Below are positions 44,751-63,782 of a DNA stretch of 63,782 nucleotides, piece after piece (the first letter of the stretch is position 1; the number at the start of each line of letters is the position of its first letter). Below the pieces are notes generated by a model. That model ran no database searches, was not told the DNA's origin, and saw only the letters and a program-made list of their open reading frames with translations. This stretch comes from Eubacterium sp. (GTDB taxonomy: Bacteria > Bacillota > Clostridia > Lachnospirales > Lachnospiraceae), in assembly GCA_017472565.1 (NCBI GenBank), contig JAFUPY010000048.1, positions 1 to 63,782 of the forward strand. The letters are read 5' to 3'. The position numbers and the translations under genes were made by a program.

Positions 44751-44826
44751 ATTTCCTCCAAATATCTTTCGCGTGAATATTTGAAAAATTCAAACTTCAC
44801 CTAATATGCTTTAAAACTCCTCTGTC

Positions 44827-44872
44827 ATTTTATGAAAGAAAGGTAAAATGCAAAATCTTCCCTTTGTTAAAT
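44827..44872 (-). promoter_or_regulatory. PHO-box-like block and -10 of pstS2
   Basis: TTTAACAA...GATTTTG-ATTTTACCTTTCTTTC (44834-44872) with -10 TAAAAT (44827-44832). The same block with the same offset to the -10 occurs before pstS1. In the 349-bp spacer 44751-45099 only this promoter block and the pstS1 terminator were recognised. Confidence 0.65.
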
Positions 44873-44971
44873 ATGCGTAAATATTTTTTTACTATGTAAA
44901 ATTTTGTAAAAGAGCTGGCAAAGAGCCTGTAATCCCTTATAAATCAATGGTTTTACGTCTTTTTCACAGAA

Positions 44972-45010
44972 AAAAGATGTGAAATCACGGAAAATGACTT
45001 CACATCTTTT
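44972..45010 (-). terminator. Terminator after pstS1
   Basis: AAAAGATGTGAAGTC pairs with GATTTCACATCTTTT (one mismatch) around a 9-nt loop, followed by TTCTG on the minus strand. It limits transcription from pstS1 into the rest of the pst operon. Confidence 0.7.
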
Positions 45011-45099
45011 GCTGTTTTGTTAAATCCTGTATAAGATTTGGTGAAGAGATTTGGGAAGAAGCACGAAATATTTGGAGTTTTAAATATTTGGAGTTCGGT

Positions 45100-46020: not shown

Positions 46021-46108
46021 GTAATTTTTCCTCCTATTTTTGAAAAACATCAGGAGACTTTCTTTCTCCTGTCACTTTCTATTCACTTCATTTTTTGTGC
46101 ACAATTGG

Positions 46109-47537: not shown

Positions 47538-50500
47538 TTAGAAATATCTTCTTTTTACAACACGTGTTCCAACAAGGACTGCACCGCAAATCATAATCAG
47601 AATATATGCCCACATATAGGATGTCAGATCAATATCACCTGTCTGAGGTGCAGATGCATCTGTATATGCCAATGCATAGGTAGAGAATTTGTTTGCTTTG
47701 AAGGAAACAGTTCCATTACCGTTATCTTTTGCGTTGATTCTCTCTGCATCTCCGTTGTCATGAACAAAAATAATGTAGAAGTTTCTGCCATCTTTACGAA
47801 GTTCTGCTGGAATAGAAAGTGTAAATGTCATCTCTCTTGTTGGCTCATCGATGGTACCCAATGTCTCAACATTGCCATCTTTATCTTCTGCCTGAATCAG
47901 TACGTAAAGATCAAGATACTGTGCAACTGTGGAGTGATCACCTGCAAACGCTTCAATTTTCTTAACATCTTCTTTTGCAGTTTCTTTGATCACATCTTCT
48001 TCAACAGGCATAATTACTACCTTTGTTGAAATTTCTTTTTCTTCTGCAACAGCTACGATTACTTTTTCCAGTGTCTCGTCAGAAACAGCATTCACCACTT
48101 CTTTGACTTTTTTGTTGTTGCTTTCAACAAGAGCTTCTTTTACGGTTGCTACCAGTTTTTCTGTAGAAACAGTTTCACCAGATGCTGCTGCTTCTGCTCT
48201 TATCTCTTTTACAGTATCAGCAACGGTAGTTGTAATGTCTTCTGCAGCTTTGTTTGCAACTTCCTGTACTTCTTTGCTTGCTACAGATTCAACTTCTGTT
48301 ACTGGTTTGTAGCTTGCATCTACAGTCTGGCATACCGTACAGGAACCTGCCTGATAAATATGACCATTTGGATTCAGTACTTCTGAATAGCTATCACCAC
48401 ATGCGCATGTGTATACTTTTTCACCAGCTGCCGTACATGTTGCCGGTTTGATTGTAGATGTATGAGAATGCCCTGTTGCTGTTCCTTCGATTGGAAGGAT
48501 AGAGTCAACATTACATCCAAAGTTGCATTTTGCCGTCTTTGTTGCATCTGTTGTACAAGTTGCATTGTTGTTATCTACATACTGTGTGTATTTATGTGCC
48601 ACAGTTGTATTGGCAAGTTCTTTGGTATCTGTTGTACCACAGTCATTATCACACTTAGCTGTTCCTGTTGCATTTTTCTGACAGGTTGCATCATTGTTGT
48701 TAACGTATGTGGTGTATGCATGACCGGTAGCTTTGATTGCTTCACCAGCTTTTATCGTTTCCTTGCATGTTGTACATACAATGTCTCCTGTATAACCATC
48801 AACCGTACATGTTGCAGCTTTTACTCCCTGTACTTCTGTTGTATGGCCTAATTTTGCAATCACTTTACCTGTTTCTAAGGTTTCTTTACAGGTTGTACAT
48901 ACGGTATCACCTGTATAGCCATCTTCGGTACATGTTGCAGCTTTTACTCCCTGCACTTCTGTCGTATGGCCTAATTTTACAATCACTTTACCTGTTTCTA
49001 AGGTTTCTTTGCAGGTTGTACATACGGTATCACCTGTATAGCCATCTTCGGTACATGTTGCAGCTTTTACATCCCGTAATTCTGTCGTATGGCCTGGAGC
49101 TGTAATAACTTCACCAGCTTTAATCGTTTCTTCACATACGGTACATACTTCATTGCCTGTGAAACCATTTACAGTACAAGTCACATCTTTTGCATCTTGT
49201 AACTCTGTCTTATGACCAAGCGCTGGAATGGTTTCACCCTGTTTGAGCATTTCGTTACAGATGGTACAGATACTATCACCTGTGTAGCCTGCTTCTGTAC
49301 AGGTTGCATCTTCTTGCTCTGCAATAATGGTTGCATCACTTGGATGTGGACAGGAGGTTGCATTCATTGACCAATCACAGCGGCCAAAGTATTCCCATCC
49401 ATACTGATTCACAATAATTCCTTCAACCCAGATAGTTACATCGAACGCATCAAAGCACGCGCCACGTTTTGCTGTATAAACATCATTTGCATCATACAGA
49501 ATGCTCATTCCATATGGAATCTGTTCCCCATTACGATACAAAGTAATATCAGAATCGCCAATACATGTGTACCATTCAAGATAAACATCTTCCTGAATAG
49601 CCGCTGTTCCTTGCTGGCCAGTTGCATAATCATAGGTCAACATCTGTACCGTTGGTGTTACCACTGCTGTATCCTCAAATCCAAAATCTGTTGGGAATGG
49701 ATTTGCGGTTATGGTTGGATAGGCATCTGTTGTGTGCAGATAATTGCTAAATCCCGTATACAACGTATTACCATCTACAACATAAGTAATATCACATCCG
49801 TAAGAAATTTCTTCCCATATTGCTGCTGTTTTTGCAACGGTAATCGTTCCAACGTTTCCATTGGAAGTACATGCAAAATTAGCTGAATCTGTAGCAAAAT
49901 ACCAGTTAAATGTTGCTGTATCTGAAATGTCTGTTGTTACGATCTCACCTGTTGTTTCATCATAGTGATCCCAATTAACAATCAGTTCTCTTTGTACCAC
50001 ATCGCCTGGAAATGCATTATTGGCATTACCAGACAACATCTTATGTCCATGACCAATCATATCCGGAACAACATTCATAGGGAACGTATGGCTAATTGTC
50101 GCAGATGCATCATTTGGATTTGTATGCGTAATGGTCACTTCTGCAGTACCAAGTTCTTTTGCATAAACAGCCCAGAAGGTGCCTTCATCGTTGGTAGTCT
50201 TTACAATGTCAACTGCACTTGTATTACCGCCTGTTACCTGAACGTCTGTAACTTCTGCCCAAGCATCCATACCATATTCATCAAGGTAATGAATATCTGG
50301 ATTGATACGATCTGTAAATGTTGGCATCATGGTCCAATTTTCAAACATATCATAAACTGGATCTACTTTTTTGCCATTGTACAATTTGATACCATAGTGC
50401 TGGTTATCCATTGTATTATTGTACTTATCATTCTTAGAACTACATTCAAACTCATACCAACGGTCATTTTGTGGGATACCTGTCACTTCGATTATTGCAT

Positions 50501-52376
50501 AAGTTCCATCTGTTGAGATTGTACTATTTGCAATATTAGCAAAATCATTTAATAACGTAATATCCGTAATCTTCCAATCGTCTCTGCCTACCACATAGAA
50601 AGTATCATTATCATCTGTTACTTTAAGCTCTTTGATATAAGTAGACTCGCTGGCACTTGTACTAGAATACATACCGACCAAAGGAAGCTCTAAAACAAAA
50701 TCAATGGAATATGTTTTTCCAGCAGCATCTGTATAATTAATCGTTGTTTCACCAAAGGACAGCATTTCTAATGCAACTGCATCTGCATTATTACTGTTTG
50801 CAGAAAGCTTCACAACGTTTTCATCCCCTGATTTCAAAGCATCTGCTGTTATCAGTGTTTCGTTTCCATTTTCTACATAATAAACAAAAATACTATCACT
50901 ATTTCCCGGAACATTACTATAGTAAGAACTCAACTGATTGTTTTTATTTTCTGTTGGTACATTATTGTTCCAATCAGACCAACGGAACATTAAGGATGGT
51001 TTGCCATTGATTAAGTTCAGGCCTACTCCGTTATTATCTATTGTACTGTTATACATATCACTTTTAGCACTGTACCGAACTCCGTACCCTCTGCCACTTT
51101 CTGGTGTTCCTGTAACTGTGATAGCTGCATAAGACTGGTCATCTGCTACCTTGATTGATGCGATATTTCCAAAATCTCCATCAAGTGTTGCAGAAGTAAT
51201 CTTCCAATCATCTTTTCCTACCAAATAGAACGTATCTGCACTATCTGTTACCGTAAACTCACTGATATATGTCGCCTGACTGGCTGTTGTACTGGAGTAC
51301 AGACCAACACTTGGCAAATCTGAAACCACATCTACACTATAAGTCACACCATTGTTATCATAAGAAATCGTAGCATTGCCAAATCCAACCATTTCAAGCA
51401 TAACTGCATCTGGATTCTGTGTGTCAGCAGAAATCTTTACTACGTTTTCATTGGAAGATATCAATTCAGATGCTAACACTCTTGTCTCTGCACCATTTTC
51501 CACATAATAGAAAAAGAGACTGTCGTTGTACCCTGGTGCATTACTGTAAGCAGACTGAAGTGGATTGTTTGTATTTTCAACAGGTCCATTATTCCATCCA
51601 TCTGGGTAACGCAGCATCAGAGATGGTTTGCCATTTTTAATCTGAAGTCCATACCACATATCAGAATTGGTGCCATATGTGTCATGCTGGGTATCACAAA
51701 CTATATTGTACCCTCTTCCGTCGGATGGAGTACCTGTCACCTTAATAGCAGCATAGGATTGATCCGCAGCCACTGTGATATTAGCAATATTAGCTAAATC
51801 TCCTTCTAATCTGGCAGAAGTAATCTTCCAGTTATCCGTTCCCACTAAATAAAAGGTATCTACTGTATCCGTCACAGTGAAATCATGGAAAATATAGCTA
51901 GACTGACTGGCTGTTGGTGTAGTATACAGACCAACTTGAGGTAACCCAACCGTAATTTTTACCTGATAGGTTGTACCAGCAGTTGTATAATTGACAGTTG
52001 CTTCACCAAATCCAACAAAACTCAGATGCATCAGCCCTGGGATATTCTCATCTGCATTGATCTGTAAAATATCCATATCGGATGATGCAAGCTGTGTTAC
52101 ATCATCAATTCTTGTTTCATTGCCATTTTCGTCAACATAGTAGAAAAACATTGGTGAACCACCTGGCGTTGTTCCCCACTCTGTTTCCAAAATACCTGTT
52201 GTATCTTCGTAATGAGTCTGTGATGTATCATTCCATCCAGCCCAACGAAAACCAAATGTAGCTGTGCTTGTGGTTGTTGTTCCATCTGCATATGCAGGAA
52301 CTGTACCTAATACCGTCGTCATCACAACCGCTAACGCTACGATAAAGGTCAAAAGTTTTTTACCTTTCTTTCTCAT
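47538..52376 (-). CDS. Large repeat-containing cell-wall surface protein (sortase-type C-terminus)
   Basis: 1612 residues. The signal peptide is about 1-30 (KKLLTFIVALAVVMTTVLG, cut after AYA). Three tandem copies of a domain of about 210 residues cover about 41-668; each has FFYYVENG, VGLYSS-type, DTFYLVGKDDWKITSATL and NGKPSLM segments. Ig-like domains follow (about 670-1010). Five 41-residue cysteine repeats (CTEDGYTGDTVCTTCKETL type) lie at about 1024-1235, then two further CxxC-like units and a Lys/Glu/Val-rich stalk. At the end are APQTGD (1576-1581), a hydrophobic helix and RRYF, a sortase-substrate pattern. It is probably covalently anchored and may bind host, polysaccharide or metals; the ligand is unknown. 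Confidence 0.85.
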   Translation of the reverse strand: MRKKGKKLLTFIVALAVVMTTVLGTVPAYADGTTTTSTATFGFRWAGWNDTSQTHYEDTTGILETEWGTTPGGSPMFFYYVDENGNETRIDDVTQLASSDMDILQINADENIPGLMHLSFVGFGEATVNYTTAGTTYQVKITVGLPQVGLYTTPTASQSSYIFHDFTVTDTVDTFYLVGTDNWKITSARLEGDLANIANITVAADQSYAAIKVTGTPSDGRGYNIVCDTQHDTYGTNSDMWYGLQIKNGKPSLMLRYPDGWNNGPVENTNNPLQSAYSNAPGYNDSLFFYYVENGAETRVLASELISSNENVVKISADTQNPDAVMLEMVGFGNATISYDNNGVTYSVDVVSDLPSVGLYSSTTASQATYISEFTVTDSADTFYLVGKDDWKITSATLDGDFGNIASIKVADDQSYAAITVTGTPESGRGYGVRYSAKSDMYNSTIDNNGVGLNLINGKPSLMFRWSDWNNNVPTENKNNQLSSYYSNVPGNSDSIFVYYVENGNETLITADALKSGDENVVKLSANSNNADAVALEMLSFGETTINYTDAAGKTYSIDFVLELPLVGMYSSTSASESTYIKELKVTDDNDTFYVVGRDDWKITDITLLNDFANIANSTISTDGTYAIIEVTGIPQNDRWYEFECSSKNDKYNNTMDNQHYGIKLYNGKKVDPVYDMFENWTMMPTFTDRINPDIHYLDEYGMDAWAEVTDVQVTGGNTSAVDIVKTTNDEGTFWAVYAKELGTAEVTITHTNPNDASATISHTFPMNVVPDMIGHGHKMLSGNANNAFPGDVVQRELIVNWDHYDETTGEIVTTDISDTATFNWYFATDSANFACTSNGNVGTITVAKTAAIWEEISYGCDITYVVDGNTLYTGFSNYLHTTDAYPTITANPFPTDFGFEDTAVVTPTVQMLTYDYATGQQGTAAIQEDVYLEWYTCIGDSDITLYRNGEQIPYGMSILYDANDVYTAKRGACFDAFDVTIWVEGIIVNQYGWEYFGRCDWSMNATSCPHPSDATIIAEQEDATCTEAGYTGDSICTICNEMLKQGETIPALGHKTELQDAKDVTCTVNGFTGNEVCTVCEETIKAGEVITAPGHTTELRDVKAATCTEDGYTGDTVCTTCKETLETGKVIVKLGHTTEVQGVKAATCTEDGYTGDTVCTTCKETLETGKVIAKLGHTTEVQGVKAATCTVDGYTGDIVCTTCKETIKAGEAIKATGHAYTTYVNNNDATCQKNATGTAKCDNDCGTTDTKELANTTVAHKYTQYVDNNNATCTTDATKTAKCNFGCNVDSILPIEGTATGHSHTSTIKPATCTAAGEKVYTCACGDSYSEVLNPNGHIYQAGSCTVCQTVDASYKPVTEVESVASKEVQEVANKAAEDITTTVADTVKEIRAEAAASGETVSTEKLVATVKEALVESNNKKVKEVVNAVSDETLEKVIVAVAEEKEISTKVVIMPVEEDVIKETAKEDVKKIEAFAGDHSTVAQYLDLYVLIQAEDKDGNVETLGTIDEPTREMTFTLSIPAELRKDGRNFYIIFVHDNGDAERINAKDNGNGTVSFKANKFSTYALAYTDASAPQTGDIDLTSYMWAYILIMICGAVLVGTRVVKRRYF
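48745..49310 (-). repeat. Tandem 123-bp repeats in the surface-protein gene
   Basis: Units of 123 bp (41 codons) recur in frame. The copies starting at 48868 and 48991 share a nearly identical block of about 80 bp, and the neighbours are more diverged. Each unit encodes CT..GYTG..VCT.C plus a GHTTE spacer. Recent duplication and unit-number variation by recombination are likely. Confidence 0.85.
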
Positions 52377-52596: not shown

Positions 52597-52622
52597 AAAA
52601 AATGGCGGGGAAAATCCCCGCC
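52597..52622 (-). terminator. Terminator of the cobalamin operon
   Basis: GGCGGGGA-TTT-TCCCCGCC followed by ATTTTTT on the minus strand. A second small hairpin (GACC-GAAA-GGTC, about 52638-52650) lies just before it. Confidence 0.85.
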
Positions 52623-52670
52623 TGCCGGTGGACCAAGACCTTTCGGTCGTCCCTCTATATAATGCATTAT

Positions 52671-53063
52671 TTATTTTATAATCGTTCCAATCCCCATCAC
52701 AACTCTCACTACCTGTTCAGAATAGGAAGCAAGTTCTGTGCAGATACGTCCTGTCTGTTCTCTATACTGTCGTTCAAAGGCATCGATTGGCACAAGACCG
52801 CATCCAATTTCATCACTGACAACGATAATGTCAGGATTTTTTTCAATTAATCGTTCTGCAAGAATCTGTAATTTAGATTCGGATACAATATCTGGTTCTT
52901 CCTGCAAGATGCGTTTCATATAGGCATGAAAATTCAGAATCCCCTGACAAGTAAATACTTCTGAAAATTCACAAGTCTCACCATTTATCCAATTAATGTC
53001 TTTATATTGTTCCTGTGCCCATTCGATCTGTCCCTGATAGGCACCACCAATAATCATCTTCAT
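52671..53063 (-). CDS. Short CobU-like protein
   Basis: 130 residues. The start MKMIIGGAYQGQIEWAQEQY resembles the CobU nucleotide-binding start but the P-loop is degraded (GGAYQGQ, no GKS/T). Central VSDEIGCGLVPIDAFERQYREQTGRI matches the CobU segment around the guanylylation region. It ends in a CobU-like VVRVVMGIG. It lies 2 bp after an intact cobU. It may be a divergent partner or have a different nucleotide-binding role in corrinoid salvage. Confidence 0.7.
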   Translation of the reverse strand: MKMIIGGAYQGQIEWAQEQYKDINWINGETCEFSEVFTCQGILNFHAYMKRILQEEPDIVSESKLQILAERLIEKNPDIIVVSDEIGCGLVPIDAFERQYREQTGRICTELASYSEQVVRVVMGIGTIIK

Positions 53064-53065
53064 AG

Positions 53066-53626
53066 CTATTCCTTCACTTTAACAGGTATTCCGTACACCA
53101 CTTCTGTCACTTTATCTGCCACTGCTGCCATCTTACGATTGATCTCTGCCAAAATCTGCTTGTAGCAGTCCATTTCAACAGTATCTCTAGCCCCATCGGA
53201 AAAAACTTCATTAGTCACGATGACCAGATGTTCGCAACATTCTTGCAACAACTGCACGCCCTGCCAGATTTTTTCTATTACCTGCTCCATACTTTCCTTT
53301 GTAAAGCATTCTTCGCTTTCATTTTTCTGCACAAAATCAAACCACTCGTTTGCCACCAGATTGGACATGCACTCTAACAGAACATCTGGCGCTTTATCAA
53401 AAAATTTTTCTGTGGTTAAATGTAAATCATTGAAACACTCCACCGTTTCAAACCCTTTTCCCGCACGCATCCTGCGGTGTCGGTCAATCTTTGCTTCCAT
53501 CTCCTTGCCAAACGGCATCATGGTTGCAATATAATAAAGAGAATGTTTCTTATGAAGTTGTACAATACACGCTTCGGCGTAGGCTGACTTGCCGCTGCCA
53601 CTGCCGCCTGTAATTACATGAAACAT
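53066..53626 (-). CDS. cobU: Adenosylcobinamide kinase / adenosylcobinamide-phosphate guanylyltransferase
   Basis: 186 residues. The P-loop GGSGSGKSAYAEA is at about 7-19. The YYIATMMPFGKEMEAKIDRHRRMRA segment (about 31-55) contains the His that is guanylylated in characterised CobU. VIVTNEVFSDGARDTVEMDCYKQILAEIN follows. CobU activates adenosylcobinamide to AdoCbi-GDP for CobS. Confidence 0.9.
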   Translation of the reverse strand: MFHVITGGSGSGKSAYAEACIVQLHKKHSLYYIATMMPFGKEMEAKIDRHRRMRAGKGFETVECFNDLHLTTEKFFDKAPDVLLECMSNLVANEWFDFVQKNESEECFTKESMEQVIEKIWQGVQLLQECCEHLVIVTNEVFSDGARDTVEMDCYKQILAEINRKMAAVADKVTEVVYGIPVKVKE

Positions 53627-53702: not shown

Positions 53703-54314
53703 CTATTCGTTGAGAGGTTCTATTTTTTGAATTTCAACAAACTGTTTTGTTCCCGCTTTCCATTTTTCTTCCTCTACAACAACAGAAAAACCACAGCCAT
53801 TTTTTACCTGCCAATGATAAAAATCCTGTTTTTCTTCTGCATATTCAGACATAAGAGCCATGACAACACCACCATGGGTTACAATTGCAGCAGAGGATTC
53901 CCGATTGCGAATCAACTCTTGCATAATGGTTTCAAATCCATTTACACAACGTTTCCGAAACGCATCCTTGGATTCCCCCTCTGGAATCAACCCTTCCCCG
54001 TTACTGTCAAGCCATTCCTGGTACTCTGGTGTATCTTTTAATTCCTCATAGGTTTTTCCTTCAAAAATTCCAAAATCAGTTTCTCGAAGTTCTTCGCAAA
54101 GTTTCATATCCTGCCCCGGAAACAGTACCTTTGCGGTCTGCTGACATCGAACCATTGGGCTGGAAATCAGACAATGTTTTGGCTGATACAACCCCCTATA
54201 TTTCAAGATATAATCCATCAGATAGTCCGTATCCAACGCTTCATCTGTGCGCCCAATGTACTGGCGCAACAGATTTCCCGGAGTTGGAAAATGTCTGATC
54301 AATACTAACTCCAT
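53703..54314 (-). CDS. cobC: Histidine phosphatase, probable alpha-ribazole-phosphate phosphatase
   Basis: 203 residues. The catalytic motif is LIRHFPTPGN (about 5-14; the usual RHG reads RHF), with ISSPMVRCQQTA and a C-terminal AAIVTHGGVVMALM supplying the second His. RHF/T variants occur in CobC-like enzymes. It overlaps cobS by 10 bp. Within the cob operon it most likely dephosphorylates alpha-ribazole phosphate or cobalamin phosphate. Confidence 0.85.
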   Translation of the reverse strand: MELVLIRHFPTPGNLLRQYIGRTDEALDTDYLMDYILKYRGLYQPKHCLISSPMVRCQQTAKVLFPGQDMKLCEELRETDFGIFEGKTYEELKDTPEYQEWLDSNGEGLIPEGESKDAFRKRCVNGFETIMQELIRNRESSAAIVTHGGVVMALMSEYAEEKQDFYHWQVKNGCGFSVVVEEEKWKAGTKQFVEIQKIEPLNE

Positions 54315-55075
54315 AATACGCCTCCTGCTATCATGATGCCTGTAATCATCAAAAGTTCTGCCAGCATAAGGAAAAATCCTGCCAAGTCACCGGTGACACC
54401 TCCGAACTGTTTGCTGGATATCTTCTTATATCCCACAAACACCAAAAAAACTGCCACTGTTGCTCCAATCGTCAGCAACCAATTCTGCCAGAATAAAAAC
54501 ACACAAATGGCAATCAAAAAAATCACCATTGTGACTGCAACTTTTTTCTTGTGAGCTCCATCCTGGAAAGTTCTTGCCAAACCATCTTCTCGCGCTGGCA
54601 AAAATGTAACAATACTAAGTCCGCTCAAGGAACGAGACACTACGAACACGCCAGCAATCACGCCCAGCATTTCTGGTGTCACCTGACTCCAGACAGCCAC
54701 ACTCCACAGGCAATAGCATCCGAAACCGATGATTGCAAATGCACCTGCATGGGAATCTTTCAGGATACGAAGTTTTTTCTCCCTATCACCATAGGAAGCC
54801 AATGCATCCATGGTGTCCATAAAACCATCCATATGGATACCGCCACTGATCAACAATGGAATCAGTGTCATGACCACGGCACGAAACAGTTCGTTACAGG
54901 ATGATAAAAATAATAGCTGACCTATAATATATGTAATAATTCCGATTACAATTCCCACAACCGGGAAAAAGCACATTGCATACTTCATGTTTTTTTCATT
55001 CCAATCCACCCTCGGCATTGGAATCTTGGAATACATGGAAAATGCAATCACCAAAGACTGAAGTAAATTTTTCAT
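54305..55075 (-). CDS. cobS: Adenosylcobinamide-GDP ribazoletransferase
   Basis: 256 residues, about six to seven TM helices. It starts MKNLLQSLVIAFSMYSKIPMP. The active-site segment GGIHMDGFMDTMDALASYGDREKKLRILKDSHAGAF is at about 77-112, with the conserved acidic DGxxDxxDA. CobS joins AdoCbi-GDP and alpha-ribazole (phosphate) at the membrane. It overlaps cobT by one base. Confidence 0.94.
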   Translation of the reverse strand: MKNLLQSLVIAFSMYSKIPMPRVDWNEKNMKYAMCFFPVVGIVIGIITYIIGQLLFLSSCNELFRAVVMTLIPLLISGGIHMDGFMDTMDALASYGDREKKLRILKDSHAGAFAIIGFGCYCLWSVAVWSQVTPEMLGVIAGVFVVSRSLSGLSIVTFLPAREDGLARTFQDGAHKKKVAVTMVIFLIAICVFLFWQNWLLTIGATVAVFLVFVGYKKISSKQFGGVTGDLAGFFLMLAELLMITGIMIAGGVLWS

Positions 55076-56136
55076 TATTTCAACACCTTATATTCCTCAA
55101 TCTGATTTTCCTGGAAAGTGCCCATCTGCTTATACACGTTCAGACCCATTTCCAGTATTGGAAGCACTGCGATGGCGCCGCTTCCTTCGCCAAGACACAT
55201 GTCGCATGTTAAAAGCGGAGAAACACCCAGCGCATCCAACATCATCATGCCTGCTGGTTCCTTGGACACGTGAGATGGCAGCATATAATCTTTTGCATTT
55301 GGTGCGATACGCGTTGCACACAAAGCTGCCACAGAGGAAATGAATCCATCGATCACAATTGGCACACCATAGATAGCGCCGCCTAAGTAAAGACCGGTCA
55401 TACCTGCGATATCAAGACCTCCAACGGCTGCCATGACTTCGATAATATCTGACGAAGAATGCAATCCATACTTTGATATGGCCTCCTTGATGACCTGGAT
55501 TTTTTTCTCCAGACCGCTGCCAGAAAGCCCTGCCCCACGGCCGGTTACAGATTCCACCGTTGTATCTAACAAAACTGCTGCGACAGCGCTGCTGGTGGTC
55601 GTATTACCAATGCCCATTTCCCCAGTTGCCAGGATATCGTAGCCTGCTTCTTTTTTCTCTTTTACCAGTTCAATGCCAATATTTATTGCCTGCAAAACCT
55701 GCTCTTTTGTCATGGCCGGCTCTTTGGCAAAATTCTTGGTTCCGTGCATAACCTTATGTTCTGGTCTTGTCACAGAAGGTACATCGGTAACCATACCGAT
55801 ATCGATTGGAAAAGCATTCACACCTGCAGTCTTACTCATGATCACAACAGAAGCTGCATCCTTGGTAAAGTTATCTGCCACAATAGCTGTTACTTCCTGC
55901 CCGGTCTGTGTTACCCCTTCCTCCACCACGCCATTGTCAGCGCACATGATGATAAGACCTTTTTTATCCAAAGAAAAATCAGAAGTTCCCTTGATGCCTG
56001 CAATCTTGATGACAGCACTTTCTAATTTTCCAAGGCTAAATAATGGTTTTGCCACAGACATCCATCTTGCTTTTGCCGCTTCCATGCTTGCCTCATTGGC
56101 TGGTCTGATTTGTTCTATTATTTGTTCCAGAGTCAT
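55075..56136 (-). CDS. cobT: Nicotinate-nucleotide:dimethylbenzimidazole phosphoribosyltransferase
   Basis: 353 residues from ATG 56136 (MTLEQIIEQIRPANEAS), because GGAGGAG lies just upstream; the longer start is rejected. It makes alpha-ribazole phosphate, activating the lower ligand base. Hallmarks are MCADNGVVEEGVTQTGQEVT, GEMGIGNTTTSSAV and GRGAGLSG. The catalytic Glu is expected near the C-terminal LGEGSGA. No 5,6-dimethylbenzimidazole synthesis genes are seen here. Confidence 0.95.
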   Translation of the reverse strand: MTLEQIIEQIRPANEASMEAAKARWMSVAKPLFSLGKLESAVIKIAGIKGTSDFSLDKKGLIIMCADNGVVEEGVTQTGQEVTAIVADNFTKDAASVVIMSKTAGVNAFPIDIGMVTDVPSVTRPEHKVMHGTKNFAKEPAMTKEQVLQAINIGIELVKEKKEAGYDILATGEMGIGNTTTSSAVAAVLLDTTVESVTGRGAGLSGSGLEKKIQVIKEAISKYGLHSSSDIIEVMAAVGGLDIAGMTGLYLGGAIYGVPIVIDGFISSVAALCATRIAPNAKDYMLPSHVSKEPAGMMMLDALGVSPLLTCDMCLGEGSGAIAVLPILEMGLNVYKQMGTFQENQIEEYKVLK

Positions 56137-56208
56137 AACTTCTCCTCCAAAATCCAATCTTTTATCTTATGTCCTCTCACAAGGGACATTTTGTCCTTTT
56201 ATACAAAA

Positions 56209-56964
56209 TTATTTTATGCCCAAATCTAACAGCACCTGATGTGATGTCAGCACATCCGCTAGCGTATTGCATTCGATGGTATAGCTTGCCTCTGGTGCCA
56301 CATTTTTGATGGCAGTCAACACCTCTGTCACAGGAATATTGCCTGCACCAAGTGCTAAGTGGGCATCCTTTGTTCCATCGTTGTCATGGACGTGCACATG
56401 TCCGATATGTGAGCCGAAACAGTTTACCCAATCCATCACAGGCACATTGGAATAGTGGTTGGCATGCCCTATATCCAGACACAATTTAAAATGAGGGGAT
56501 TCCACCAGTTCTGCTGTTTTCGCAACCAATGCAGGATCTGGGTCATATACATTTTCAAACAATACCTGCATCTGATCCTTGCCTTCTAAAAAACGGTTCC
56601 AAAACTCCGCCATTCGCTCCGGCCATCCATAAGGAAACCAGAAAATCGGAATATAACTGGTATGAAACACAATTTTCTCTGCCCCAAGCCGCACTCCAGC
56701 TTCGTAGGCCTGCTCGAATCGATACTCCGTCACCCGACGAATCTGAGAATCAAAAGACACCGGACTCATATCCAAAAATGGTCCGTGTAAAAAAAGGCGC
56801 AAGGCCCCCATGTATTCCATGCGAGCCCTATAATCTATGATCGTCTGTTCCAGGTTATCCAGGTTGTCTGTAATGGAAAAGTCAATACTTTCCACACCCA
56901 TCCCGGTCTGTTCCACAGCTAATTTCATTTCTTCTGCAGTTAATAAATCACTAAAAGAAATCAT
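56209..56964 (-). CDS. TIM-barrel protein (sugar phosphate isomerase/epimerase-like)
   Basis: 251 residues, AP_endonuc_2/xylose-isomerase-like barrel. Likely metal-ligand regions include FENVYDPDP, KLCLDIGHANHYS and the C-terminal IECNTLADVL. HVHVHDNDGTKDAHLALGAGNIPV is a typical ligand-bearing strand-loop. It sits between the ECF S-component and cobT, inside a B12 operon, with about 70-bp gaps on each side. Its role in salvage is unknown; one idea is ribosyl or lower-ligand chemistry. Confidence 0.8.
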   Translation of the reverse strand: MISFSDLLTAEEMKLAVEQTGMGVESIDFSITDNLDNLEQTIIDYRARMEYMGALRLFLHGPFLDMSPVSFDSQIRRVTEYRFEQAYEAGVRLGAEKIVFHTSYIPIFWFPYGWPERMAEFWNRFLEGKDQMQVLFENVYDPDPALVAKTAELVESPHFKLCLDIGHANHYSNVPVMDWVNCFGSHIGHVHVHDNDGTKDAHLALGAGNIPVTEVLTAIKNVAPEASYTIECNTLADVLTSHQVLLDLGIK

Positions 56965-57033: not shown

Positions 57034-57933
57034 CTACTTCTTCTCCAGTCCCCATTTCACCTGGACTCTCTCTACCTTTTCAATCAGCGGCTTGGCACCA
57101 ACTGCCAGGAAAAATACCGTGGCTATCGCCTGTACCAGATCCACCGGCAGACCAGTCAGATAAGCAGCCACAATTCCCTGCCATGTAATGTCTGCACTGT
57201 ACATAATAATAGAAGCCGGATTCATAATGCCGCCATAAATAAAGATAACGGATAAAAATCCATACACGCACAGAGAGATTCTGGAACGCTTGATCAGCCC
57301 TTTCTGGAACAATAGACCAGCCAGAAGACCAATCACACCAAACACCACCATCTGCCATGGCGTCCATGGGCCCTGTCCATAGATAAAGTTGGATACAAGT
57401 AAGCTGATACAGCCAACTAAGAATCCGCACTCCGGTCCCATGGTCACACCGCCGATGATGACCATAGCTGCCACCGGTTTAAAGTTTGGCACCATATAAA
57501 AGACAGCTCTGGCTGCTGCAGTAAGAGCAGACCAGACAGCAATCAGCATAATCTCACGGGCACTTGGCTTCCGGCCTTCAAAAGTAATAAAGAACGGACA
57601 CATACTGTAGACCAGAATCAAAATACTGATAAACATATATTTTCGATCGCCAAGAACATTGATTCCCATCCATATAGTCAATGGTACCAACACAACCAAA
57701 AGGATCAGGAACATAATCGTTCGCTTGCTAAGCGTTCCGCTTTTTGAAGTCTTATCTCCCCATTTATCCAGTTCCACAGGGATCTCATTGCTATCCCAAA
57801 AACTTTTCAAGATTTGCTTTGCACTGACCTTCTTTTTCTGCGAAGAATCCGTGTCTTTATTCTGTTTGTGATAAACATCCTCGGCATTTAAAAACTCAGC
57901 CAAAAATGAATTTTCCTTCTTTTGACTCTCCAC
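57034..57933 (-). CDS. ECF transporter S-component, probably cobalamin/corrinoid
   Basis: 299 residues. A long hydrophilic N-terminal extension (about 1-70, Lys/Asp/Ser-rich) precedes about six to seven TM helices. The segment ALTAAARAVFYMVPNFKPVAAMVIIGGVTMGP resembles ECF S-components of the CbrT/QueT/FolT-type group. In the B12-riboswitch operon with EcfT and EcfAA', a corrinoid substrate (CbrT-like) is the best inference. The extension is unusual for an S-component. Confidence 0.82.
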   Translation of the reverse strand: MESQKKENSFLAEFLNAEDVYHKQNKDTDSSQKKKVSAKQILKSFWDSNEIPVELDKWGDKTSKSGTLSKRTIMFLILLVVLVPLTIWMGINVLGDRKYMFISILILVYSMCPFFITFEGRKPSAREIMLIAVWSALTAAARAVFYMVPNFKPVAAMVIIGGVTMGPECGFLVGCISLLVSNFIYGQGPWTPWQMVVFGVIGLLAGLLFQKGLIKRSRISLCVYGFLSVIFIYGGIMNPASIIMYSADITWQGIVAAYLTGLPVDLVQAIATVFFLAVGAKPLIEKVERVQVKWGLEKK

Positions 57934-57986: not shown

Positions 57987-59834
57987 CTATTGTTCACAAG
58001 CATGTATCAGGTTCACTACTTCCTGTTTCAAAATCGCTTCTTTATCAAACGCACGCACCATACGGTTTGCCGCTGTTGTATAGAAGCTGTTACATGCAAA
58101 AAAGTTCTTTGGTATATCTTCGGACACAACACCACCATCAAAGAACATTCCACATCGATCTGCGTACTCTGCGCAGAACTCAATATCGTGAGACACCATG
58201 AAAATGGTAACGCCGTGTTCTTTCAAGGTCATAAGAATTTCCGCAAATTCCTGCTTTAACAGAGCATCCATACCCTTGGTAGGCTCGTCCATCAAAAGCA
58301 CCTTCGGACGAAGAAGCAGAATTTTTGCCAAGGCAAGACGCTGCTGTTCGCCACCAGAAAGGTCAAATGGATGGGAATCCATGCGATGGTCTAAGTGAAC
58401 CAGTTTGGCAATCTCATCCACCACGCGAGCCTTTTCCATATCAATCGGGAAATCCTCGCTCATGCGTTCCTTTGGTCCGCCAATCATTTCAAACAATTCC
58501 AGACGGACATTTTTCTTTACAAACAGGCTCTGTGGGTTCTGCGGAACCACACCAAGGTAAGCCTGATACAATTCTCTATCACTATATTTCTGAAGATTTT
58601 TCCCACCCAGGGTAATCTTGCCCCGATATGGCTTGCGCATCCTGCACATGGTGGAAAGCAAGGTGCTCTTACCAGTACCATTACCACCAAGGAGACAATA
58701 GACCTCACCCTTCATGATCTTAAGAGATGCCCCTTTTACAATATCAGGGGTATCCTTCTCATAGCGGAACCACACCTCATCAATGTCAATCATAACTTCC
58801 TGTGGCTGCGTCTTTTCAGAACCAGATGCAGCTGTAACCGCGTTGGACTTACGATTTGCTCCACAGGTTTCTTCCCATTCTTTTCGTTTCCTTCCATAGC
58901 CTGCATTCTGACCAAAGATGACATCTGTGTGCACAGAGTCATCGTCCATAGAAGAAAGCTTTCTCTCCAGATAGGTTCTGCCGTCACGAATGGTCAGCGG
59001 AATCCAGCCTTCTACCTTTTCCGGCGCACCACTTTCCAGATTTGTCACACGAGGAATCGCCTTTTCCTGCTCTACCTCAAGGAAAATCTGTGTTGGGACG
59101 GGGATGGCCTGGAACATGGCATGATTCATTTCATAGAGCTGTCTAGCCACCACCTGTGGCCAGCCATCAAGAAGTACCTTGCCACCATCCATAACGATGA
59201 CACGGTCTGCAAGATGAAATACCTCCTGCATACGATGCTCTGTCATCAAAATAGTTGTACCAAGCTCACGATTGATCTTGTAAACGGTCTCCAAAAACTC
59301 GTTGGCCGCAATCGGATCCAACTGAGAAGTAGGTTCATCCAGAATCAGAATCTGTGGATGCATCACCATGATAGAAGCCAGATTCAGGATCTGCTTCTGT
59401 CCACCGGACAGTTCTTCTACACCCTTGTGAAACCACTCCTGAATCCCAAAATAAGAAGCCATTTCAGCTACACGGATACGGATGGTCTTGGTATCAAATC
59501 CCAGACTTTCCAGACCAAAGGCAAGCTCATGCCACACCTTATCTGTTACAAGCTGGGCATCCGGATCCTGCATAACGTATCCGATACGGGCACTCTGCTC
59601 TCTGGCATCCATTTCGTCCAGAATCTTACCACCAAATCGAATCTCCCCATGGATATCGCCATGTGGTCGAAGGATCGTCTTTAACTGACGAAGCAAGGTG
59701 GACTTTCCACAACCAGATGCTCCACACAGCAGGACAAACTCGCCCTTTTCTATGTTAATATTGATTTTTTCTAATGTAACTTCCTCTCTCTGCGGATAGG
59801 CAAAGGAGTACTCTTTTATCTCTAAAAATCCCAT
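57987..59834 (-). CDS. ECF transporter fused ATPases (EcfA-EcfA')
   Basis: 615 residues from ATG 59834 (MGFLEIKEYSFAYPQREEV); the longer start lacks an RBS. Two NBDs in one chain. NBD1: CGASGCGKSTLLR, signature LSGGQKQILN, Walker B ILILDEPTSQLD. NBD2: GGNGTGKSTLL, signature LSGGEQQRLALAKILL, Walker B LLMDEPTKGMD. A linker of about 100 residues with a charged insert lies between. In many ECF systems these are separate genes. It overlaps the ecfT end by 13 bp. Confidence 0.92.
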   Translation of the reverse strand: MGFLEIKEYSFAYPQREEVTLEKININIEKGEFVLLCGASGCGKSTLLRQLKTILRPHGDIHGEIRFGGKILDEMDAREQSARIGYVMQDPDAQLVTDKVWHELAFGLESLGFDTKTIRIRVAEMASYFGIQEWFHKGVEELSGGQKQILNLASIMVMHPQILILDEPTSQLDPIAANEFLETVYKINRELGTTILMTEHRMQEVFHLADRVIVMDGGKVLLDGWPQVVARQLYEMNHAMFQAIPVPTQIFLEVEQEKAIPRVTNLESGAPEKVEGWIPLTIRDGRTYLERKLSSMDDDSVHTDVIFGQNAGYGRKRKEWEETCGANRKSNAVTAASGSEKTQPQEVMIDIDEVWFRYEKDTPDIVKGASLKIMKGEVYCLLGGNGTGKSTLLSTMCRMRKPYRGKITLGGKNLQKYSDRELYQAYLGVVPQNPQSLFVKKNVRLELFEMIGGPKERMSEDFPIDMEKARVVDEIAKLVHLDHRMDSHPFDLSGGEQQRLALAKILLLRPKVLLMDEPTKGMDALLKQEFAEILMTLKEHGVTIFMVSHDIEFCAEYADRCGMFFDGGVVSEDIPKNFFACNSFYTTAANRMVRAFDKEAILKQEVVNLIHACEQ

Positions 59835-60763
59835 AATCGATAAGCACCTTTTCCACTTTTCACAACTGTGGAGCGTAATTTTTTCCAACGAAGAGCATCA
59901 AGTCCGTCAACCAAAACTGGCAACAGGCAGAAAATACCGTAAGCCAGGTATGAGAAAAAGCTTCCCACAGTCAGCGGAATCCCTTCGATGACAATCTTCG
60001 GATTATAGTTTGCGTATGTGTAACCCTGCGCACTGCCAAATAGGAACACTGTCAACAATCCGCCCATAAGAATCAGCAGCAAGCCATCTCTTTTTTCAAA
60101 CTTGTACAGAGAATACGCACTTCGAAAACCGGTCCCATAGCCACGAGACTTCATGGAATCTGCCGTAATCAAGGCAGTTTCCAATGACCAGGTAATGAGA
60201 ATAGACAGCATGGTAACACCATTTTTAATCTTTTTAAAAAAGTTACCATTGCTGATATCTCGTCCAATACACTTCTGTCCCTGACTGATTTTTACCGCAT
60301 GTTTACTGAGCTTTGGCACAAAACGCAGACACATAGACAAAATCAGTGACAATGCCGGCAACAGCTTGCCAAACAGATACACGAACTTGTCCGATGTCAT
60401 TACCTGATGGAAACAGCGGAACCAGATCAGCATCTGGCACAGCATCACACCAAGGGCAAAGCCGTAAACGATAGATTCCAATGTAATGGCATTGCCATTT
60501 TCCAGATAAAACAGGATGGTCACACCATAATGGGAAAACATCGGGTTGATGACCAACACCAGAATCAACATCGGTACTGATATGAGCATAAAGCTTTTTA
60601 TCGTCTTTTTAAATCCATGCAATATCCACTCGTAGATGAAAGCGCACACCAAACTGATCCCCAAAAACACAGGATGCACATAAAAGGCTGATGCCACGAT
60701 CACGCAGGCAAAAAACACAAAGGTTACCAGTGGATGATAGCTGGAGAAACAATCTTCTCTCAC
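59822..60763 (-). CDS. ECF transporter transmembrane component EcfT
   Basis: 313 residues. About five to six TM helices, with the coupling-helix region containing SLETALITADSMKSRGYGTGFRSAYS (about 191-216) carrying the ADSMKSRGYG motif that docks on the ATPases. It pairs the fused ATPases with the S-component encoded downstream. Confidence 0.92.
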   Translation of the reverse strand: MREDCFSSYHPLVTFVFFACVIVASAFYVHPVFLGISLVCAFIYEWILHGFKKTIKSFMLISVPMLILVLVINPMFSHYGVTILFYLENGNAITLESIVYGFALGVMLCQMLIWFRCFHQVMTSDKFVYLFGKLLPALSLILSMCLRFVPKLSKHAVKISQGQKCIGRDISNGNFFKKIKNGVTMLSILITWSLETALITADSMKSRGYGTGFRSAYSLYKFEKRDGLLLILMGGLLTVFLFGSAQGYTYANYNPKIVIEGIPLTVGSFFSYLAYGIFCLLPVLVDGLDALRWKKLRSTVVKSGKGAYRLWDF

Positions 60764-60775
60764 TTCAAACTGCTC

Positions 60776-61303
60776 CTATTCTTCAACGCCTTCTACATAA
60801 GCGCCAACATCACGGCCAAGGTCGCGGGTGTATTTCCACTCGATTACTTCGCCACCAGACAGTGTAATCTTATCTGAGCCATAGCTTGCGCCTTCTCCAT
60901 CAACGAAAAAGTTCCAGCCAGACAATTCGCCACAATCGAATTCATAAAGCTGGCCGATACCCTCTACATACTTTGTATTATAAATTGGAGAGGTACTATG
61001 TTCCAAGCCAATCTTATTTTCCTGACATACTGCCAACAACACATCAAATACCGTGTCACCTTCTTCAATCACAACCTCAGTTGGTGCTAAGATTACACCA
61101 TCTTCCGGAACAAACTCTGCCTTTTCAGACTTTAAGTTGTCCATGTTATCAAGAATTGTTTTACAGTCAATGGAAATGGTTACGGTAAGGGCATCTTCCG
61201 GAATCTCTCCTGCTCCGCTGCCAGAACCAGAATCTCCACAACCAGCTAACACGCCAAGTGCAAGCACACCAGTTAAAACCAATGCTAATAATTTCTTTTT
61301 CAT
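60776..61303 (-). CDS. DUF4430 (transcobalamin beta-domain-like) lipoprotein
   Basis: 175 residues. A signal peptide and lipobox (LGVLAGC) are followed by a Gly/Ser linker. The DUF4430 domain (about 40-170) has GDTVFDVLLAVCQENKIGLE, YVEGIGQLYEFDCGELSGWNF and GEVIEWKYTRDLGRDVGAY. In vertebrates this domain is the C-terminal beta-domain of intrinsic factor/transcobalamin, which caps B12. It sits 12 bp before ecfT and just after the alpha/alpha-toroid lipoprotein. It is probably a surface corrinoid-binding subunit. Confidence 0.88.
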   Translation of the reverse strand: MKKKLLALVLTGVLALGVLAGCGDSGSGSGAGEIPEDALTVTISIDCKTILDNMDNLKSEKAEFVPEDGVILAPTEVVIEEGDTVFDVLLAVCQENKIGLEHSTSPIYNTKYVEGIGQLYEFDCGELSGWNFFVDGEGASYGSDKITLSGGEVIEWKYTRDLGRDVGAYVEGVEE

Positions 61304-61359
61304 ACTTCCTCCTAATCCATACTTTGGTGGATATTATTTTAAATTATAAAAACGTTCGT

Positions 61360-62466
61360 TTACTTCATGTCGGACAAGTCGAACAAAGGTGTCTGTCCAT
61401 CTAAAAATCGTTCATATCCAATCAGACAATATCCCGTCTGCTCTGTGGCAATCATATCCATGCCATCACCCTTGATATGACAAAAGCTGCCATCTTTCAA
61501 GGCGAAGCTTAAAAGTGCATCATACACAGAGATTCCGTTTTTGATGAAACGCTCGTCAGTATCACCGTCAATACCTATCGTTGCCAATGCTAAAACCACC
61601 TGCGCACAGGATTCCGCCGTAGCAACACCGCCGCTCTCATACATACCATTTTCACTCTGAAGTTCACTTAAGGCCTGCACTGCGGTATCAATGGCAGCCT
61701 GTACCTCAGGATTTTCCTTGGCATATGGCGCCAGAGCAACAATGGCCATAGCGGTAAAATCCGGGTCTGGTTCGTTCGGGTCGTAGCCCCAACCACCCAG
61801 TTCATGTTGCTTCTTTAGAATGTAATCTACGAATGCTTCTCTTGTGGAAACGACTTCCGCTTCAATATCCTGTGAAAACTCATATCCCACAGAATCCATG
61901 GCAAGCAGTGCCCAGATAGGACCAGACAAACCCTGCTGACACACACTTTCATAGTCAGATATCTTGTCAATCAGGTTATAGCCGGCAAAATCTGCTGGGT
62001 TCTGTCCCAACGCAGACAGTGCAATCACCACGCGGGAATATTCTGTATAGCGGCGTTCATTTAACACTCCATTGGTGTCATTCAATGCCTTAGTAAGACC
62101 AGACAGGTAAAGATTCACATAGGCCTCATCTACCTCAGCGCCAGCACGGACCAAATCAAACATGGTCCATTCTCCGCCCACTGTTCCATAGGTCGGCTGA
62201 GTTACCTCTGACTGCAAAAATGCACAGATGCCATCAATCACCGCCTGATTATTTGCCGGATCAGCATCTAAAACTGGTGCATTGGCAGCAACATTATCAC
62301 TACCTGCATCTGTATTTTCGTTATCTATATTATTGTCTTTGTCATTCTTTTCTGCATTTGTTGAAATCTGTGTATCTCCCTGTGGTTCGGTACTACCACA
62401 ACCGCCAAGTGCCAGACAACCAGCCATCAACACTGCCAACAGGCCACAGAGCATTCTTTTTTTCAT
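61360..62466 (-). CDS. Alpha/alpha-toroid (prenyltransferase-like) lipoprotein, transcobalamin alpha-domain-like
   Basis: 368 residues. A lipobox (ALGGCGST, Cys about 23) precedes a low-complexity Asn/Asp linker of about 45 residues. The rest (about 75-365) is built of repeated helical pairs of the terpenoid-cyclase type, for example GGWGYDPNEPDPDFTAMAIVALAPY and ATAESCAQVVLALATIGID. The N-terminal domain of intrinsic factor/transcobalamin has this same alpha6/alpha6 barrel. First gene after the B12 riboswitch. Likely the main corrinoid-binding subunit of a surface receptor, by inference. Confidence 0.82.
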   Translation of the reverse strand: MKKRMLCGLLAVLMAGCLALGGCGSTEPQGDTQISTNAEKNDKDNNIDNENTDAGSDNVAANAPVLDADPANNQAVIDGICAFLQSEVTQPTYGTVGGEWTMFDLVRAGAEVDEAYVNLYLSGLTKALNDTNGVLNERRYTEYSRVVIALSALGQNPADFAGYNLIDKISDYESVCQQGLSGPIWALLAMDSVGYEFSQDIEAEVVSTREAFVDYILKKQHELGGWGYDPNEPDPDFTAMAIVALAPYAKENPEVQAAIDTAVQALSELQSENGMYESGGVATAESCAQVVLALATIGIDGDTDERFIKNGISVYDALLSFALKDGSFCHIKGDGMDMIATEQTGYCLIGYERFLDGQTPLFDLSDMK

Positions 62467-62545: not shown

Positions 62546-62580
62546 CAAAAAACATACCGTTCTTCCACCCAAGAACCGTA
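62546..62580 (-). terminator. Expression-platform terminator of the cobalamin riboswitch
   Basis: AC-GTTCTT-gggtgg-AAGAAC-GT (one G-G mismatch in a stem of about 10 bp) followed by a TGTTTTTT tract on the minus strand, between the aptamer and the first gene. It would stop transcription when B12 is bound. Confidence 0.7.
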
Positions 62581-62590
62581 CTGCTATTTC

Positions 62591-62736
62591 TATGGGAAGT
62601 ATCCTGACTCGACTTCATCCGCCAACTGCGCCTTCCGGAATGCTTCCGTGGCTTTACCGCAATTCGGTGCAGTTATTGTCCATCATACAGTAGGGGTAAA
62701 CCTGTGCTGGATTCCAACCAGCTTCCTGTCTCCATA
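62591..62736 (-). promoter_or_regulatory. Cobalamin riboswitch (B12 aptamer)
   Basis: On the minus strand, the conserved core reads AATCCAGCACAGG, then GCCACGG, then the B12 box AGTCAGGATAC (62599-62609). A P1 stem is closed by TATGG/CCATA. The length of about 146 nt fits the family. It controls the whole capture-import-salvage operon. Confidence 0.93.
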
Positions 62737-62787
62737 TACCAAGATGTAAGATTGCCCTCACTTCTAACGCGAGGATTGATTGTTTAG

Positions 62788-62816
62788 AGTATAACACCAA
62801 ATGGTAACTATGGCAT
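62788..62816 (-). promoter_or_regulatory. Promoter of the cobalamin operon
   Basis: ATGCCA (62811-62816), 17 bp, TATACT (62788-62793), followed about 55 bp later by the riboswitch. The 464-bp spacer 62467-62930 thus holds this promoter, the aptamer, its terminator and the terminator of the next gene. Confidence 0.55.
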
Positions 62817-62855
62817 AGAGGTTTTTTGTATAATTGGTGTTTTTTTTAGAAAAAC

Positions 62856-62892
62856 AAAAAAACTACCATAAGATAAAAAGTCTCATGGTAGT
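62856..62892 (-). terminator. Terminator of the DUF4143 gene
   Basis: ACTACCAT-G-AGA...TCT-T-ATGGTAGT followed by TTTTTTT on the minus strand. Confidence 0.82.
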
Positions 62893-62930
62893 CACAATAA
62901 ATTATTTTTACTAAGTCATGTCAAAAAATT

Positions 62931-63782
62931 CTATTTCCCATTATTATCTGGCTTCAAAAACATCACATAGTAAATCGGCATATACAACACTTTATTTTTT
63001 TCAGTAGTAATTCTCTCATTCGAAAATACATATCCATATTTTGCGCCGTAATCATCATTTTTCAAAAAGCCATTCAATGCACTGTGAACCATATAGTCCT
63101 TGCCGGATTTTACCTCAACAGGAATTACAGAAAGGGAATCATAATCATCAATCAAAAAGTCTACTTCACCTTTTTGCTTGTTGTCATAATAAAACAAATC
63201 GAAACCATGTGCCTTTAACTCCTGCGCTACTACAGACTCATACACCGTTCCGAGGTTAATACTTTTCACGTCATCCAAAATAGCTCTGATATTGTTTCTA
63301 TAAAGAATTCCCGTCAGTATACCCACATCATTAAGATAAAACTTCAGCAAATTCTTTCCGCTACTTTCAATCAGTGGAAATACAGGTGTCGATATGGCAT
63401 TTACATTCAAAGCAATGCCTGCACTAATCAGATAGTCAAACTCATCCTGATAATCCCTTGACTGTTTCCAGTCCTTTCCCTCTATGTTCTTGATAACAAT
63501 TCTCTTCTTTTTATTCTCTAAAGAAGATGGAATCATATCGAAAATTCGTTTTACCTTCAACTTCTTATTCGAATCCATCTCATATTTAGATGCATCTGCA
63601 CCATAATAATCATGGATTTCGCCCTGAATAGCTCTTACTTTCATGATATTGCTATCCGTTAAAAAAGAGTTAATCGCATCCGGTAGTCCACCCACCAGCA
63701 AATATTTTTTAAAAAGATCCATAACCTTGTTATGCATTCCTTCATCAAGACTTTCTCTTTTCAGAAACTTTGCATGCATAGC
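62931..63782 (-). CDS. AAA-type ATPase with DUF4143 (partial, C-terminal part)
   Basis: 284 codons visible; the gene runs off the right edge, so the P-loop domain is missing. The region LVGGLPDAINSFLTDSNI and the C-terminal nuclease-like core (GTVYESVVAQELKAHG, KQKGEVDFLIDDYDSLSVIPVEVKSGK, with E-V-D and E-V-K residues) are characteristic of DUF4143. These ATPases are common, often horizontally spread, and of uncertain function. The in-frame ATG at 63779 is internal, not the start. Confidence 0.85.
   Translation of the reverse strand, partial: AMHAKFLKRESLDEGMHNKVMDLFKKYLLVGGLPDAINSFLTDSNIMKVRAIQGEIHDYYGADASKYEMDSNKKLKVKRIFDMIPSSLENKKKRIVIKNIEGKDWKQSRDYQDEFDYLISAGIALNVNAISTPVFPLIESSGKNLLKFYLNDVGILTGILYRNNIRAILDDVKSINLGTVYESVVAQELKAHGFDLFYYDNKQKGEVDFLIDDYDSLSVIPVEVKSGKDYMVHSALNGFLKNDDYGAKYGYVFSNERITTEKNKVLYMPIYYVMFLKPDNNGK

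Follow-up and report, generated by a model that had tools for sequence, protein, structure and literature searches.

Two adjacent lipoproteins with the folds of the two transcobalamin domains: a candidate split corrinoid receptor in a CbrT-like ECF operon

In ECF importers, the S-component is held to capture the substrate alone. What, then, is the role of two lipoproteins encoded at the head of an ECF operon, behind a cobalamin riboswitch, when their folds are those of the two domains of intrinsic factor and transcobalamin? We addressed this question in a contig of a Eubacterium sp. of the family Lachnospiraceae (assembly GCA_017472565.1, contig JAFUPY010000048.1); the whole stretch of DNA that was analysed, 63,782 nucleotides, is referred to here as the window.

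The operon and its genome

A first-pass annotation had placed two adjacent lipoproteins with these two folds under a cobalamin riboswitch and ahead of EcfT, a double EcfA, EcfS, and CobTSCU. Both open reading frames are present on the minus strand at the coordinates given there, and a simple rule finds a lipobox in each; the DUF4430 fold is recognised by PF14478 and the toroid by its family profile. The downstream gene calls turned out to be right, the double EcfA being one fused gene, and two genes are added to the earlier list, a CbiR-like gene (56209-56964) and a partial CobU paralogue (52671-53063). The order is riboswitch, toroid, SLBB, EcfT, EcfAA', EcfS, CbiR-like, CobT, CobS, CobC, CobU, and partial CobU:

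62577..62751, minus strand: cobalamin riboswitch aptamer at the operon head (RF00174, 53.6 bits, E 1.6e-10)
62546..62580, minus strand: hairpin and U run right behind the aptamer, a possible terminator (expression platform), weak
61360..62466, minus strand: alpha/alpha-toroid lipoprotein, 368 aa, putative counterpart of the transcobalamin alpha domain
60776..61303, minus strand: SLBB/DUF4430 lipoprotein, 175 aa, putative counterpart of the transcobalamin beta domain, of the EcfT-linked SLBB clade
59822..60763, minus strand: EcfT transmembrane coupling protein, 313 aa, called from position and recurrence
57987..59888, minus strand: EcfA-EcfA' fused double ATPase, 633 aa counted from TTG
57034..57933, minus strand: EcfS substrate-binding membrane protein, CbrT-like (B12/cobinamide), best structure 6FNP chain A
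56209..56964, minus strand: CbiR-like cobamide-remodelling phosphodiesterase (NF041277; PF01261)
55075..56157, minus strand: CobT (TIGR03160, 1.9e-106, above cut-off)
54305..55075, minus strand: CobS (TIGR00317, 1.5e-31, 110.1 bits versus a cut-off of 110)
53703..54314, minus strand: CobC (TIGR03162, 5.2e-30, below cut-off)
53066..53626, minus strand: CobU (NF004469, 2.2e-28, below cut-off)
52671..53063, minus strand: partial CobU-like paralogue, 130 aa (NF004469, 8.4e-14, profile positions 91-170 only)

The toroid gene is separated from the SLBB gene by 56 nt and the SLBB gene from EcfT by 12 nt, while from EcfT through the Cob genes the intergenic gaps range between -67 and +76 nt. The riboswitch, likewise called in the first pass, lies 110 nt ahead of the first start codon and exceeds the RF00174 gathering score of 31.5 bits. 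Behind it, the hairpin gave a z of -2.27 for its 81-nt fold, with 1 of 200 shuffles folding equally well or better; since the consensus terminator scan of the window did not list the hairpin and U run, the terminator reading is weak.

Several neighbouring elements were also observed. The partial CobU paralogue adjoins CobU on its downstream side, and a DUF3800-XI RNA motif (52607-52654, 41.5 bits) separates the cob operon from an open reading frame of 1612 aa (47538-52376) that is repeat-rich and, by eye, has a sortase-like end. A tandem pair of similar lipoprotein-like frames at 43863-46050 resembles, again by eye, phosphate-binding proteins. A DUF4143 gene with its flank (62788-63780) is about 97-98% identical to a stretch on another contig of the same genome (L010:16556-17332); both copies lie upstream of a cobalamin riboswitch, the second misses a stretch, and the duplication may reflect a repeat at which the assembly broke.

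The source genome (2.1 Mb, 126 contigs, 68.6% complete, 3.2% contamination) has four DUF4430 matches and four cobalamin riboswitches. A second operon, on contig C99, consists of a riboswitch, a 1966-aa fused protein (SLBB then toroid, with an LPxTG-like end), a 267-aa SLBB protein, EcfAA', EcfS, and EcfT. Contig C2 carries cbiD, cbiH, cobyric acid synthase, cbiB, and a BtuC-like permease, the last below cut-off. Given the cbi genes and the import operons, the cell may both make and import corrinoids, and because the genome has these cbi genes and the BtuC-like permease, its need for the ECF route is not assured. Another cobalamin riboswitch of this genome is followed (L010:4713-11533) by a BtuC-like permease, an ABC ATPase frame, a lipoprotein-like frame, and a 1144-aa frame.

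Two lipoproteins and a CbrT-like importer

Queried alone, the window toroid matched the prenyltransferase toroid family PF00432 at 9.3e-5, below the Pfam cut-off. The toroid assignment is nevertheless sound, because the profile of the 41-row toroid family reaches squalene-hopene cyclase among solved structures at 2.2e-21; 30 of the 41 members match the C-terminal family of this enzyme. The eukaryotic cobalamin-binding family PF01122 was matched weakly by five of the 41 (best 7.8e-5) and not by the window toroid at E up to 1, and against solved structures, again at E up to 1, the toroid profile returned terpene cyclases and neither transcobalamin nor intrinsic factor. The SLBB lipoprotein matched PF14478 directly (6.9e-14, 52.5 bits versus a cut-off of 23.8), as did all 24 members of the narrow alignment of EcfT-linked SLBB proteins. 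This family, DUF4430, corresponds to the SLBB domain of the transcobalamin clade, in which a beta-hairpin inserted behind the helix of the beta-grasp contacts the ligand. A broad SLBB profile (38 rows) placed transcobalamin-2 first, weakly (E 0.0041 for the isolated beta domain, 0.13 at full length), whereas the narrow profile, searched against solved structures at E up to 1, had no match. The profiles thus tie both halves to the animal B12 binders, if weakly.

A tree of 54 SLBB domains, in which 20 of the 51 inner branches are open, many are weak, and several rows are long, groups the window protein in a clade of 26 with a support of 94/99. EcfT follows immediately after 18 of these 26, compared with 1 of the 28 remaining SLBB rows. 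At four loci (L067, L068, L072, and L073), a member of the clade forms the second half of a toroid-to-SLBB fusion, which is the animal order; two further fusions of this kind, in L050 and L069, fall outside the clade. We read the clade as a putative membrane-anchored, ECF-linked subunit, unlike the SLBB domains in large surface proteins.

For the double ATPase, TIGR04520 matched above its cut-off (3.1e-102) in two stretches, and PF00005 also matched in two; the annotated start is TTG, and the real one may lie further in. EcfT gave no match in Pfam and nothing meaningful in NCBIfam, and its identity follows from its position and from the recurrence of its family beside EcfAA and EcfS in relatives. 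The window EcfS, used as a single query, had 6FNP chain A as its sole significant solved structure (6.7e-7), and the profile of 17 EcfS relatives reached the same chain at 6.6e-22, versus 6.4e-6 for a riboflavin uptake protein. This chain also came first for the EcfS of the second operon of the genome (2e-10) and for that of L070, a relative without a detected riboswitch (2.1e-7). The entry 6FNP is the structure of ECF-CbrT, which according to the available text imports cobalamin and cobinamide (PMC5997447); chain A is listed merely as 'Membrane protein', and from its length of 182 aa and its alignment to EcfS we infer that it is the S-component. By sequence, the window EcfS belongs to the CbrT family, and the predicted importer has EcfT and two EcfA ATPases. 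A riboflavin S-component, at which Pfam PF07155 might hint, is not favoured, since 6FNP chain A scores far better; neither is a cobalt ECF system (CbiMNQO), because the S-component is CbrT-like.

The CbiR-like protein matched NF041277 at 1.9e-12 with 47 bits versus a cut-off of 105, and also PF01261; because the match lies under the family cut-off, CbiR activity is a guess here. CbiR is described, in the accessible part of the source, as cleaving cobamides, the products of which CobT/S/C/U-type enzymes can rebuild (PMC7733943). A CbiR-like TIM-barrel gene stands directly behind EcfS in two genomes (window 56209-56964 and L071:15255-16037). Its position suggests that import may be coupled to cobamide remodelling.

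Recurrence and riboswitch linkage in relatives

Toroid relatives, sought at E up to 1e-10 in 150 genomes of the family, were found in 27, the source genome included; among the other 26, PF14478 was present in all and RF00174 in 19. We compared 33 stretches from these 26 genomes and 19 stretches from the 19 strongest of 42 matching genomes in a phylum sample of 299, one of the 19 also belonging to the family. Profiles seeded with the window proteins were used to call the gene order; the EcfAA label alone means little because its profile also matches other ABC ATPases. Riboswitches were counted within a span comprising the cluster and 1.7 kb upstream. In all, 50 of the 52 toroid clusters had an SLBB domain, 37 had EcfT, and 32 had a riboswitch in the span. 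The family, with the window and the second operon of its genome, contributed 36 clusters (SLBB in 34, EcfT in 24, EcfS in 23, riboswitch in 20), and the phylum sample 16 (SLBB in 16, EcfT and EcfS in 13, riboswitch in 12). At L108 and L113 the riboswitch lies inside the cluster rather than ahead of its first gene, at L113 behind the ECF genes. The genome of L113 has 26 cobalamin riboswitch matches (25 above the gathering score) and 11 SLBB matches. Two stretches, L117 and L119, carry SLBB, EcfT, EcfAA, and EcfS without a toroid, with a riboswitch in L117 and a sub-gathering match of 24.8 bits in L119.

The spans of toroid clusters held 21 of the 40 cobalamin riboswitches of the 27 family genomes, versus 0.09 expected (about 230-fold), and 16 of the 101 in the 19 phylum genomes, versus 0.17 expected (about 90-fold), the expectation assuming uniform placement, a simple null that ignores that both elements sit near gene starts. 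In view of the excess in both samples, chance placement is rejected. The association of the pair with B12 riboswitches proposed in the first pass thus holds far above chance, but it is not general, since 20 of the 52 clusters had no cobalamin riboswitch in the span, which counts against the receptor reading. Three of the riboswitch-free clusters (L063, L106, and L107) are cut at the upstream end, and L106 has a riboswitch 2.3 kb ahead of the stretch; that of L071, on the same strand about 13 kb ahead of the stretch, is too distant to count. When 15 family loci were rescanned with Rfam at a laxer setting, the only RF00174 candidate apart from the known L066 riboswitch was a weak one (L065:272-528, 22.1 bits); the riboswitch-free phylum loci L105, L107, and L111 were covered by the whole-genome riboswitch search only.

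By hand count, 17 of the 37 EcfT-bearing clusters encode the toroid and SLBB domains in different proteins, and 20 have them fused, in either order. Separate chains account for 11 of the 24 family and 6 of the 13 phylum clusters, the first gene being cut in L063, L107, and L108. The run toroid-SLBB-EcfT-EcfAA'-EcfS opens the cluster in the window and four family relatives (L051, with about 1 kb between SLBB and EcfT, L053, L070, and L071, where CbiR is also present) and in three phylum stretches (L113, L115, and L112, the last with EcfAA' and EcfS fused); at L116 the run is preceded by another ATPase gene. A riboswitch stands in front of the window, L112, L115, and L116 clusters, and none was found in front of those of L051 (611 nt upstream covered), L053, L070, L071, and L113. 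These riboswitch-free relatives of the same order are the chief result against a simple story. Toroid-to-SLBB fusions in the animal order stand directly upstream of EcfT at L067, L072, and L073. Additional SLBB or toroid domains are present in many clusters, so a one-to-one pairing of the window lipoproteins is not assured.

By a simple rule applied to 124 toroid and SLBB proteins, 115 had a lipobox or an N-terminal hydrophobic segment, 5 were N-terminally cut, and 4 had neither. A lipobox was present in 5 of the 33 proteins with a toroid alone and 13 of the 63 with SLBB alone; the window and L105 clusters are the only two in which both partners had one. As predicted from these signals, membrane anchoring is general and a pair of lipoproteins unusual.

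A candidate receptor, its rivals and known systems

The reading first proposed, in which the pair is a surface receptor akin to transcobalamin that supplies an ECF importer of the B12 type, is supported by the CbrT-like EcfS, the recurrent riboswitch linkage, and the weak profile links to animal B12 binders; it is weakened by the clusters without a riboswitch. A further point against it is that ECF-CbrT functions in liposomes without any soluble receptor, according to the available text (PMC5997447). Human transcobalamin provides a precedent, as its alpha and beta domains, made separately, assemble only upon addition of cobalamin, and the same ligand-driven assembly is cited for intrinsic factor in the text available (PMC5599065); two lipoproteins could, for this reason, act as a split receptor. 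We consider it probable that the two lipoproteins are separate, membrane-anchored halves of a transcobalamin-like corrinoid receptor that feeds the CbrT-like importer.

The sequences show the genes with their families and order, the recurrence, the link to riboswitches, and the kinship with CbrT; for the receptor itself we infer corrinoid binding, ligand-dependent assembly, hand-over, and remodelling. Most likely, one half would bind the corrinoid and the other would then close over it, so that the ligand, enclosed by the two, would keep them joined on the outside of the membrane. The beta-grasp half, of the EcfT-tied clade, would present the corrinoid to the CbrT-like EcfS, and EcfT and EcfAA' would power import. 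Once imported, a cobamide may be cut by the CbiR-like enzyme, after which CobT/S/C/U may rebuild it with the lower ligand that the cell prefers, and plentiful coenzyme B12 would shut the operon off through the riboswitch.

The SLBB lipoprotein might instead act alone as an ECF-coupled receptor or docking subunit, the toroid being a separate scavenger or serving another ligand, with no joint site. The EcfT-linked SLBB clade is indeed the steadier ECF partner, as reflected by its position upstream of EcfT, by L117 and L119, where the ECF genes have an SLBB protein and no toroid in the stretch, and by L059, where the toroid sits behind the ECF genes. We nevertheless hold this to be unlikely, given that the toroid is fused to an SLBB domain of that clade at four loci (L067, L068, L072, and L073) and directly precedes a clade SLBB in the window, L051, L053, L070, and L071. 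A receptor for a different ligand (cobinamide, cobyric acid, haem or another tetrapyrrole, or an unknown metabolite) in the riboswitch-free clusters, and perhaps in the window, would explain why 20 of the 52 spans lack a riboswitch; an ECF importer for haem exists (PMC7299338, available text), and a reviewer of Burroughs 2007 cautioned about ligand diversity in the part available (PMC1796856). The riboswitch and corrinoid salvage genes of the window speak against such a ligand, as does the fact that the EcfS proteins of the window, of L070, where no riboswitch was found, and of the second operon all match 6FNP chain A first; we regard this reading as decidedly improbable. That the pair is a general adhesin or an enzyme-like surface protein, in the operon by accident, would fit a toroid fold common to terpene cyclases and complement-like domains, but it would leave unaccounted for both a linkage that recurs far above chance in two genome samples and the SLBB-transcobalamin link, and we give it hardly any credence.

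Beyond the split receptor that we prefer, a wider proposal is made tentatively, and we would rather expect it to need revision: a class of ECF importers may have a dedicated outer receptor, in which the EcfT-tied SLBB protein docks and the toroid completes a ligand-glued pair that passes corrinoids whole to an S-component of the CbrT type, with animal transcobalamin as a descendant of the fused form. The descent of animal transcobalamin from a fused module is an idea of Burroughs 2007, in the text available (PMC1796856). If the receptor reading is right, Gram-positive bacteria catch B12 with the two-part module of animals coupled to an ECF importer, and many unassigned DUF4430 and toroid surface proteins join B12 scavenging, which bears on corrinoid competition in microbial communities. 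The locus would also offer a small, natural, and already split system for watching cobalamin-driven assembly and hand-over.

Animal transcobalamin, intrinsic factor, and haptocorrin resemble the window pair in combining a toroid with a beta-grasp domain, and their toroid-then-beta order recurs in L067, L068, L072, and L073. They are single soluble secreted chains taken up by receptor-mediated endocytosis, whereas the window has two genes, one lipoprotein for each domain, next to an ECF importer; the sequences are weakly similar. The BtuG and BtuH proteins of Bacteroides have folds other than the toroid and SLBB and an outer-membrane TonB-dependent partner. They are said, in work credited to Wexler in 2018, to be surface lipoproteins that capture B12 ahead of the transporter. 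ECF-CbrT of Lactobacillus delbrueckii shares with the window a CbrT-like S-component, EcfT, and two EcfA; in the available text, it has no receptor lipoprotein described and an ECF module common to other S-components, whereas in the window all parts are in one operon (PMC5997447).

Among open-licence PMC papers, as represented by titles and abstract starts, no experimental work on these bacterial toroid/SLBB proteins was recognised. The pair is not described in the available parts of PMC4285132, PMC3766115, PMC2667541, PMC6593275, and PMC7478625, and that of PMC4350170 mentions DUF4430 only for fish. The closest antecedent is the prediction of Burroughs, Balaji, Iyer, and Aravind in 2007 that surface proteins made of toroid and SLBB domains, encoded in operons with CbiO/CbiQ, serve to scavenge B12 (PMC1796856, here and below as far as its text was available); the B12-scavenging proposal is therefore already in print. 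Their bacterial proteins, like those of the window, combine extracellular SLBB and alpha/alpha-toroid domains in operons with CbiO-like and CbiQ-like (EcfA and EcfT) genes, and both fusion orders, stand-alone SLBB domains, and often a second SLBB protein in the operon were reported. Such bacteria were said usually to lack key enzymes of B12 biosynthesis, a remark that the source genome, incomplete and slightly contaminated, does not fit, having several cbi genes. Split lipoproteins, an S-component, a riboswitch, and an EcfT-linked SLBB clade are not described in that text. The ligand assignment is much firmer here because the locus has a CbrT-type S-component and a riboswitch; what is new, as read from the sequences, is the split lipoprotein form, the CbrT-type partner, and the SLBB clade tied to EcfT, and the two-protein layout with its import partner makes the 2007 prediction directly testable.
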